NCBI GenBank assembly: GCA_040388625.1
Contig: JAZKBK010000005.1
Coordinates: 223,478-287,477, forward strand
Direction of reading: 5' to 3'
Length of the DNA stretch: 64,000 nt
Origin: Gemmatimonadota bacterium
GTDB lineage: Bacteria; Gemmatimonadota; Gemmatimonadetes; Gemmatimonadales; Gemmatimonadaceae
Part shown: positions 9,299 through 12,341 of the stretch, one piece after another
Position numbering within the stretch: position 1 is the stretch's first letter
Layout: each line of letters starts with the position of its first letter
The notes under the pieces: generated by a model
Told to the model about the DNA's origin: nothing
Database searches by the model: none
Seen by the model: the letters and a program-made list of their open reading frames with translations, nothing else
Position numbers and translations under genes: made by a program

Positions 9299-9337
9299 CA
9301 TGAACGGGCCAACAATTACATCAACAAGACTTGATTG

Positions 9338-9691
9338 ATGCCAACATCCGCGAAAACACCCGCCAACACGACACGGAAGGCGCCGGCTTCACCGAGTTCC
9401 GGTCGAAAGGCAGTCGGCGTGGACTCCGACGCCAAGTCCAGAAACCTCCTCCGGCTGCGCAGGATCGAGGGTCAGGTGCGCGGGCTGCAGAAGATGGTCG
9501 AGGATGACCGCTACTGCGCCGACATCATGACGCAGATAGCGTCCACGCACGAGGCGTTGCGCGCGGTCGGTCGCGAGTTGATGCGTAACCATCTCAAGCA
9601 CTGTGCGGCGTCGGCGATCCGTACGGGCGGTGAGGAAGCGTCCGAGATGTACGACGAGCTGGTGGACATGATGTACAAGCACAGCCGGTGA
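9338..9691 (+). CDS. csoR: CsoR-family copper-sensing repressor
   Basis: A 117-residue all-helical repressor. The core reads NLLRLRRIEGQVRGLQKMV, and the Cu(I) ligand set of the family is present: Cys in DDRYCADI, then His and Cys in RNHLKHC. The N-terminal 35 residues are a basic, Pro/Ser/Thr-rich tail longer than in typical CsoR. The start is the ATG at 9338, with an in-frame TTG three bases before it. It sits 39 bases after copA and would act on the operator at 6582-6598. The downstream side passes directly into a repeat array that starts within its stop codon. Confidence 0.92.
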   Translation: MPTSAKTPANTTRKAPASPSSGRKAVGVDSDAKSRNLLRLRRIEGQVRGLQKMVEDDRYCADIMTQIASTHEALRAVGRELMRNHLKHCAASAIRTGGEEASEMYDELVDMMYKHSR

Positions 9692-9804
9692 CGACGCCAA
9701 CCACGCGCCGAATTGGTGGGCATTTCCGACGACGCCATCCGCGCGCCGAATTGGTACGCGTTTCCGACGACGCCATCCACGCGCCGAATTGGTACGCATG
9801 CGTA
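9691..9804. repeat. 38-bp tandem repeat, three copies
   Basis: Three head-to-tail units of 38 bp (9691-9728, 9729-9766, 9767-9804), each containing CGCGCCGAATTGGT (first copy CACGCGCCGAATTGGT). The first base of the array is the last base of the csoR stop codon. Later copies form the outer part of the left arm of the large inverted repeat. Confidence 0.8.
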
Positions 9805-10294
9805 GGGCGCGGATCCTTCCGCGCCTGACCCCGTTACACGCGATCGGAATCCGATAAACGCGGTATATATCCGCGCGTGACCCCGTTACACGCGATCGGA
9901 ATCCGATAAACGCGGTATATATCCGCGCGTGGCCCCTGTCGGCGCGATCGGAATCGGATAACCGCGCCGCCGATTTCGGAATGCCGCGTATCGGATCATT
10001 ATGATGGATGGAATTCGGATCGCGTGCCGTATCGTGATGCCGACAGCCGACAATTTCGGCGTTTCTGAATTACAACGATTACATCGGGCGCCGACCAGAA
10101 CGATCACGACGATCGGCGTCGGTCGGATACCCCATTCCGGTTGCGCGTAACGGGGCCAGCCGTGGATATATACCGCGTTTATCCGATTCCGATTCCACGT
10201 AAATGGGCCAGGCGCGGAAGGATCCGCGCCCTACGCATGACCACCAATCCGGCGCGTGGGTAGGATCATCGGAAGCGCGTACCAATTCCGCGCG
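9741..10294. repeat. Large inverted repeat, about 160-bp arms and 230-bp centre
   Basis: 9741-9902 and 10134-10294 are imperfect reverse complements over about 160 bp. Shared blocks include GAATTGGTACGCG, CATGCGTAGGGCGCGGATCC, TCCGCGCC, GATAAACGCGGTATATATCC and CCCCGTTAC. Inside each arm is a smaller hairpin (GGCGCGGA/TCCGCGCC). The centre (9903-10133) holds no convincing gene and carries further degenerate copies of ATCGGAATCGGATAA. The right arm ends 14 bases before the hexosaminidase start codon. It may be a non-autonomous element or a repeat expansion; no transposase or target duplication is seen. Confidence 0.8.
9826..9929. repeat. 52-bp tandem repeat, two near-identical copies plus a degenerate third
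   Basis: Units 9826-9877 and 9878-9929 both begin TGACCCCGTTACACGCGATC and include GATAAACGCGGTATATATCC. A third, decayed copy follows to about 9970 (TGGCCCCTGTCGGCGCGATC). The same text appears inverted at 10134-10230. Confidence 0.85.
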
Positions 10295-10307: not shown

Positions 10308-12341
10308 ATGACCCGACTCGATCTCATCGTCGCCGTGACTATCGTGTGCGCCACCGCACCGGGAATCGCTCGCGCTCAGGCACCAGCCACGCTCAACCTG
10401 ATGCCTGTTCCGAGCAGTGTAGCGGTTCAAAACGGATCAATAAATATTGATTCGACATTCCGTGTCGCAGTCGTGCATGGCGACGATGCGCGACTGATGC
10501 ACGCTGTAGAGCGAATGATACCGCGCCTGGAGTATAGAACAGGTATCGCGATGTCCCACGCAATCGCACACGATTCCACCGGCGCGACGCTCGTGATCGA
10601 TTGCGACGGTCCCGGCGAACGAGTGCAGGGTATCGACGAAAATGAATCGTACACGCTCACAAGCGGCAACGGATCCCTGACCCTGCACGCAGCGACGACC
10701 GTCGGTGTGATCCGCGGACTCGAGACCGTCCTCCAGCTCGTCGACGGCGACGCGCAGCACTACTTCATCCCCAATGTCAGCATCACCGACACGCCGCGCT
10801 TCAAGTGGCGTGGACTGCTCGTCGACGTGAGCCGCCACTTCGAGCCGGTATCCGAGATCGAGCGAACGCTGGATGGCATGTCGGCCGTCAAGCTCAACGT
10901 TCTGCACTGGCACCTGTCCGACGATCAGGGCATTCGTGTCGAGAGCAAGCGTTATCCCAAACTGCAAGGCGTGGGCTCGGACAGTCTCTACTACACGCAG
11001 GCGCAGATCCGCGAAGTCGTGGCATATGCGCGCGATCGCGGCATTCGCGTGGTGCCCGAGTTCGACATGCCGGGACATTCGAGCGCCTGGTTCGTCGGAT
11101 ATCCGCAGTACGCCAGCGGACCGGGGCCGTACGCGATCGGTCGACGCTGGACAGGCTACGCTGGCGTGTTCGATCCGACGCGCGAGACGGTCTACAAATT
11201 CATCGACCGCTTCATTGGCGAGATGTCCACGTTGTTCCCCGATGCGTACTGGCACATCGGTGGCGACGAGGTAAATGCAACACAGTGGAAACAGAGTGCG
11301 CGCATTCAGAAGTTCATGGCAGCACGCCATCTCGCGGATCACGCTGCACTGCAGGCGTACTTCAACCAGCGCCTGTCGCGCATTCTCACAAAGCATCACA
11401 AGCACATGATCGGCTGGGACGAAATCCTGCACCCCGATCTGCCGCGCACCACGGTCGTTCAATCGTGGCGCGGCACGCAGTACCTCGGTCAGGCGGTCTC
11501 GCAGGGTTTCAGCGGAATTCTCTCGGCGCCCTACTACCTGGATGCGATGAAGTCGTCGGAGCAGATGTATCTCGCCGATCCACTCGCCGGCGACAGCACG
11601 CTTACTCCGGACCAGGTCGCGCGCGTGCTCGGTGGCGAGGCGTGCATGTGGTCCGAGCTCATCGCTCCCGAGAGCATCGACTCGCGCATCTGGCCGCGGT
11701 TGGCTGCGATCGCCGAGCGTTTCTGGTCGCCGAGGAGCGTGACCGACGTGGGAGACATGTATCGCAGACTCGCCATTCAGGACGTGCGCCTGGAGCAGCT
11801 TGGGCTGGGACAGGAGTCGCATACCGACCGATTCCTGCGACGCATCATGAATGGTCCTGATATCGCGCCGCTCGCGCATTTGCTCCGGTTCGCCGAACCG
11901 GTGACATTGGGCCAGCGCGTGCACGGCGGGCCGACCACGCAGATGACACCGCTGGTGCAGGTTGTGGATGCAGCGCAGCCCGATCCACCGAATAGATGGC
12001 GCATTCAGCAGTTGGTTGCCGACGTCATCGCTTCGCCCAGGACAAACGTTGCTGCGCACGATACACTTGCGAAGTGGTTCTCCGACTGGCGCGCGCTCGC
12101 ACCGCGCGTGCATGATGCCGGGAATCGGTCGCCGCTCGCGCAGGGTGCGATTCCAGCAGCTGACGCGCTTGCACGTGTTGGCACGATCGGGCTCGCGGCG
12201 CTCGAGGCGCGCAAGAGTGGCATGCCGTTATCGCAGGCCTGGACTGACTCGGCGAAGGTGATTCTGACTGCGGCTGACAAGCCGCAGGGGTTGCTGCATC
12301 TGGTCGTGGTGCCGGCAGTGCGGCGGTTGTTGACGCAGTAG
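10308..12341 (+). CDS. Exported GH20 beta-N-acetylhexosaminidase
   Basis: A 677-residue exported glycosidase that would release terminal N-acetylglucosamine from chitin fragments or peptidoglycan-derived sugars. Signal peptide residues 1-23 (ending ARAQA). The GH20b-type N-terminal domain spans roughly 28-160. The TIM barrel starts at RFKWRGLLVDVSRHF and shows LNVLHWHLSDDQG, PEFDMPGHSSA and the catalytic pair in HIGGDE (Asp320-Glu321), used in substrate-assisted catalysis. Residues beyond about 520 form a helical C-terminal extension. The ATG at 10308 lies 14 bases from the large inverted repeat, so its 5' leader is unusually short or lies in the repeat. Confidence 0.93.
   Translation: MTRLDLIVAVTIVCATAPGIARAQAPATLNLMPVPSSVAVQNGSINIDSTFRVAVVHGDDARLMHAVERMIPRLEYRTGIAMSHAIAHDSTGATLVIDCDGPGERVQGIDENESYTLTSGNGSLTLHAATTVGVIRGLETVLQLVDGDAQHYFIPNVSITDTPRFKWRGLLVDVSRHFEPVSEIERTLDGMSAVKLNVLHWHLSDDQGIRVESKRYPKLQGVGSDSLYYTQAQIREVVAYARDRGIRVVPEFDMPGHSSAWFVGYPQYASGPGPYAIGRRWTGYAGVFDPTRETVYKFIDRFIGEMSTLFPDAYWHIGGDEVNATQWKQSARIQKFMAARHLADHAALQAYFNQRLSRILTKHHKHMIGWDEILHPDLPRTTVVQSWRGTQYLGQAVSQGFSGILSAPYYLDAMKSSEQMYLADPLAGDSTLTPDQVARVLGGEACMWSELIAPESIDSRIWPRLAAIAERFWSPRSVTDVGDMYRRLAIQDVRLEQLGLGQESHTDRFLRRIMNGPDIAPLAHLLRFAEPVTLGQRVHGGPTTQMTPLVQVVDAAQPDPPNRWRIQQLVADVIASPRTNVAAHDTLAKWFSDWRALAPRVHDAGNRSPLAQGAIPAADALARVGTIGLAALEARKSGMPLSQAWTDSAKVILTAADKPQGLLHLVVVPAVRRLLTQ

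Follow-up and report, generated by a model that had tools for sequence, protein, structure and literature searches.

A head-to-head dimer of GTAG-tagged REPs with tandem modules, probably part of a REP/RAYT system in a Gemmatimonadota genus

Results

Inverted arms and tandem modules between a csoR-like gene and a hexosaminidase gene

We analysed a 64,000-nucleotide stretch of DNA (the window) from a Gemmatimonadota host genome of 3.84 Mb. In it, a csoR-like gene is followed co-directionally by a GH20 hexosaminidase gene, and the gap between them holds the following features.

9335..9691, + strand: CsoR-like metal-sensitive repressor gene (PF02583), upstream of the structure; the array starts at its stop codon
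9690..9799, + strand: three tandem 38-bp upstream modules (2.9 copies), with CGCGCCGAATTGGT at 9704, 9742 and 9780
9742..9902, + strand: left inverted arm, 84% complementary to the right arm
9802..9825, + strand: REP 1, GTAG followed by an 8-bp stem, TCCT loop and 8-bp stem
9818..9973, + strand: three downstream 52-bp units, each beginning in the REP 3' half-stem; third copy 71% identical
9974..10133, no strand: single-copy spacer separating the arrays, with no second copy in the genome
10134..10294, - strand: right inverted arm, 84% complementary to the left arm
10211..10234, - strand: REP 2, GTAG and stem, with the TCCT loop of REP 1
10243..10294, - strand: two upstream modules of the right arm at 38-bp spacing (10243-10256 and 10281-10294)
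10308..12341, + strand: GH20 beta-hexosaminidase gene, downstream; start codon 13 bp after the right arm

A sequence-only reading had described non-coding inverted arms at about 9741-10294. The arms are indeed present, 161 nt each with 231 nt between them, and no long open reading frame crosses the structure. Their pairing is imperfect yet spans the entire arm length, and as single-stranded DNA the structure folds with z = -14.8, none of 20 shuffles being equally good. The same reading placed tandem units of 38 and 52 bp in the left arm; both are there, but the right arm also has its two 38-bp modules, and the left 38-bp array extends beyond 9741 to 9690, beginning 51 bp further left at the csoR-like stop codon. 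The 52-bp array comprises 2.9 copies from 9818 to 9966. Each arm contains one REP consisting of GTAG, an 8-bp stem with a 4-nt loop (GGCGCGGA-TCCT-TCCGCGCC) and then TGRCCC, and the GTAG ends of the two cores point outward, giving a head-head pair with 385 bp between the REPs. An Rfam scan of the structure returned no match.

The arms carry members of a dispersed REP family

Searching the host genome with the structure as query gave 109 matches, and aligning them revealed a shared core of GTAG, GGCGCGGA-nnnn-TCCGCGCC and TGGCCC. A scan for this REP passed 52 palindromes with 8-bp stems, 43 of them with an exact GTAG, and the GTAG family amounts to 49 copies in the scanned stretches of the host genome; REP counts refer to genome stretches around search matches, and the count for the congener is a lower bound. 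In 77 copies from two species, the conserved stretch extends from about -28 to +50 relative to the core, so what is dispersed is this unit rather than the 554-bp structure. REP arms are found singly at many genome sites, whereas neither the 160-bp middle of the window structure nor the dimer as a whole recurs in the genome; because the spacer is single-copy, the arms are the dispersed unit. CGCGCCGAATTGGT has 36 sites genome-wide at one mismatch or fewer, 20 of them exact (a reversed control pattern has 1), and GATAAACGCGGTATATAT occurs three times, all at the window locus and nowhere else in the genome.

By a crude gene model, 43 of the 49 REPs are intergenic, 4 overlap a predicted open reading frame and 2 lie at edges; 25 sit between convergent genes, 18 between tandem, co-directional genes and none between divergent genes. 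A like placement has been reported for other REPs (PMC3733652). In one region of the host genome (C2:345-403 kb, L078-L081), ten GTAG REPs occur within 58 kb, all on the minus strand and with no inverted pair.

Tandem modules recur around the REPs of both species: 0-5 upstream modules per REP, mostly at 38-42 bp spacing and with no REP inside, and 0-4 downstream modules per REP, mostly at 52 or 62-63 bp spacing. Tandem units within an inverted arm are therefore a property of the REP family and are not peculiar to the window site. The downstream unit begins in the REP 3' half-stem, a pattern that resembles tandem duplication with the palindrome as its anchor.

Adjacent REP pairs in the host genome agree in loop sequence in 12 of 13 cases against 1.5 expected, a level reached in 0 of 100,000 shuffles. 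Pairs in direct orientation mostly agree too, which means that hairpin pairing by itself does not explain the agreement. The TCCT loop of the window occurs elsewhere only at the REPs of one RAYT gene, described below.

RAYT genes lie between inverted REPs of the same family

The host genome has five Y1 transposase domains. Three of these genes encode similar proteins of 186-210 aa, each gene lying between two inverted REPs of the window family.

C1:535067/535682, inverted: REPs flanking the C1 RAYT, TCCT loops
C5:130387/131003, inverted: REPs flanking the C5 RAYT, TTTA loops
C6:330018/330673, inverted: REPs flanking the C6 RAYT, TGCA loops

A congener's C25 RAYT has the same arrangement. Two RAYT alignments show an invariant HUH motif, PDHVHA, and an invariant tyrosine in Y-x-x-x-N-P, and Pfam Y1_Tnp matches the proteins above its cut-off. 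Their best NCBIfam model is NF047646, REP-associated tyrosine transposase (E about 1e-21), at 74-77 bits, just under the curated cut-off of 80. The closest PDB entry by sequence is 4ER8, and an AlphaFold model of a congener RAYT (L156, Gemmatimonadetes bacterium isolate clean265), built with an alignment of relatives (pLDDT 86), has as its best fold match that same entry, a RAYT bound to a REP hairpin (E 1.2e-7).

Work on other RAYTs showed that loop positions are crucial in perfect-palindrome REPs (PMC8266576). Given that importance, the TCCT loop common to the window REPs and the C1 RAYT's own REPs suggests that the C1 RAYT may be the source of the window REPs.

Two further repeats were encountered among the RAYT-like genes. 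A second REP family has a GTGG tag and the core GGCACGGATGCATCCGTGCC; its members flank a RAYT relative with two in-frame stops in the congener G002 (C23:16927-17547, L151), one lies at host C4:572851 (L091), and single GTGG copies sit in GTAG-REP loci. In the host, a 305-aa RAYT-like open reading frame (L101:1462-2379, C6, minus strand) carries in frame a different inverted repeat with 129-nt arms (80%) and a 51-bp tandem unit, an architecture like that of the window but inside a transposase gene.

Orthologous loci differ in modules, loops and orientation

The closest comparison at the window site is with G002, in which the flanking proteins are ~95-96% identical and the flanking DNA 92-93%. 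Homology with the host resumes sharply at both gene edges of the csoR-hexosaminidase gap, and between them the content has been replaced: G002 has one GTAG REP (loop TGTA), four 39-bp modules and one GTGG-GGCACGGATGCATCCGTGCC REP. The earlier proposal that a repeat family is spreading or expanding at this site thus agrees with the ~49 dispersed REPs and with the altered array at the orthologous site, and the same two results contradict ordinary single-copy intergenic DNA conserved base by base. In the more distant G001 and G003 the csoR-like gene is not followed by the hexosaminidase gene, and the window site is undatable there.

Module number also differs between species in orthologous arrays elsewhere. 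Loops agree in 7 of 20 orthologous comparisons versus 18 of 22 comparisons of neighbours within a locus (Fisher P 0.004, from a hand-made list of orthologs in which the points are not independent). Both loops of one orthologous dimer read TTTA in one species and TTCT in the other; at the C1 RAYT locus the corresponding pairs are TCCT/TCCT and TTCT/TTCT. Loops change in concert inside loci.

At two loci, the C1 RAYT and C3:214133-214479, the segment enclosed by inverted REPs lies in reverse orientation between flanks that are themselves collinear. It is conceivable, though we regard it as a long shot, that inverted REP pairs are recurrent sites of inversion and correction, possibly driven by RAYT, at which the inter-arm DNA flips and both arms are rewritten together. 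If so, RAYT would be a local rearranging enzyme, perhaps switching the expression of flanking genes, besides copying REPs.

Other loci differ in whether a REP is present. On C5 the congener lacks a 798-bp REPtron, and we considered its site as a virgin empty site; base-level alignment instead shows a module remnant and a junction with 5 bp of microhomology (ATCGG), so that the sequence difference looks like a deletion. At the C6 RAYT site the gap is short and free of REPs in two more distant congeners, and G002 has a REP at C33:17354-17497 where the host counterpart is ~49 bp with none. None of the compared loci proved to be a virgin insertion site with a clean boundary.

Discussion

Several lines of evidence indicate that in the window structure two GTAG-tagged REPs very probably form a head-head, BIME-like dimer. 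This dimer very probably belongs to a REP/RAYT (REPtron) system in the Gemmatimonadota genus studied here and has been enlarged by local copying of tandem modules on both sides. The family has GTAG directly 5' of the palindrome and many extragenic copies, as in the GTAG superfamily of REPs, whose palindromes measure 20-40 bp and follow a GTAG or GTGG tag, and its RAYT genes combine inverted same-family REPs on either side with the HUH motif and catalytic tyrosine. Counting against this reading are the failure to find a clean virgin insertion site among the compared loci, the deletion-like character of the C5 site in the congener, the 385 bp between the window REPs, the unrepeated dimer and the NF047646 score just below cut-off.

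In the mechanism that we infer, a RAYT, as an HUH/Tyr single-strand endonuclease, would recognise the folded REP (GTAG, 8-bp stem and loop) as single-stranded DNA and cut it, by analogy with other RAYTs (PMC8266576), and would rejoin it, thereby seeding REPs, for the most part downstream of genes. At a seeded site, upstream modules of 38-42 bp and downstream modules of 52 or 62-63 bp could then be added by replication slippage, recombination or RAYT action, which could also create inverted partners, keep loops alike within a locus, and sometimes flip or delete DNA between inverted arms. We attribute these local changes to recombination or slippage; RAYT may also be involved. The effect on the host is probably near-neutral, the structure acting at most as a hairpin in the mRNA between the two flanking genes.

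With the GTAG REPs, BIMEs and REPtrons of E. coli, Stenotrophomonas and Pseudomonas (PMC2817692, PMC3733652, PMC8266576), the family shares the GTAG tag and a perfect palindrome with a short loop, and, as in known REPtrons, a RAYT between inverted REPs, head-head dimers made up of like elements and a location downstream of genes. Known REP dimers are usually spaced by 20-100 bp (PMC3733652), whereas the spacers of host head-head dimers are 187-466 bp; unlike known GTAG REPs, the family also has repeated 38-42-bp upstream modules without a REP. REPINs (PMC3116915) similarly combine two inverted REPs into a single long hairpin and occur in genomes that carry a RAYT, but they are short doublets dispersed whole, whereas dispersal in the present family is limited to the arms; with its unique middle, the single-copy spacer 9974-10133, the window structure is not a REPIN. 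TIRYT elements (PMC3733652) likewise pair a tyrosine transposase gene with long inverted flanks, but those flanks are unrelated to GTAG repeats, which the flanks here contain. The HUH/Y1 transposase fold is common to IS200/IS605 elements (IS608, ISDra2) and the RAYTs here. IS200/IS605 transposases recognise hairpins. The present RAYTs, however, reach 19-26 bits with the NCBIfam IS200 model, whose cut-off is 55, far less than with the REP-associated model.

The strongest competing explanation, which we consider the less likely one but by no means negligible, is that the REPs are inert relics and that all present variation reflects host recombination and slippage in old palindromes with no RAYT activity. 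Host recombination can account for all of the differences between species, namely the changes in tandem number, the inversions and the deletion with 5 bp of microhomology, and two stops interrupt a RAYT relative in the congener. Set against this are the open RAYT genes (three in the host genome and one in a congener), the conservation of stems and GTAG in nearly all copies, and the congener REP at G002 C33:17354-17497 opposite ~49 bp in the host. It is improbable that the structure is mainly a selected regulatory element, such as an mRNA stabiliser, terminator or protein-binding site between the two genes: the hairpin is strong and REPs lie downstream of genes and never between divergent ones, but the array is replaced in a close congener despite the 92-93% identical flanks, and our scan of the structure found no sigma-70-like site and no intrinsic-terminator-like site with a T-run. 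A classical MITE, that is, a non-autonomous DDE transposon with terminal inverted repeats and a target duplication that moves as a 554-bp unit, would account for the long inverted arms and many copies but is highly implausible, in line with the earlier view of the structure as unlike a simple MITE, since the middle and thus the whole unit is single-copy, arms occur alone at many sites, the repeat flanks Y1/HUH transposases, and no target duplication was identified at the element ends, where the 38-bp tandem would mask one.

The type of system is well known; what is new is the family, its module architecture and the long and sometimes inverted dimers. The arms are unusually long and changeable, and the loci evolve fast. 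A literature search by titles and abstracts, with few subscription journals, turned up no report of REP/RAYT in Gemmatimonadota, and the family has apparently been undescribed until now. Two congeners with orthologous arrays provide snapshots of REP array growth, inversion and homogenisation, bearing on how REPs spread and why RAYTs are retained, and the loop-matched RAYT/REP pairs (TCCT-C1, TTTA-C5 and TGCA-C6) open cognate specificity to direct testing. Finally, G002 contigs C31 (at its end, L237) and C33 (at its start, L238) both stop within the same inverted REP-flank repeats; the assembly seems to have been broken by REP palindromes, and short-read genomes may undercount such dimers.
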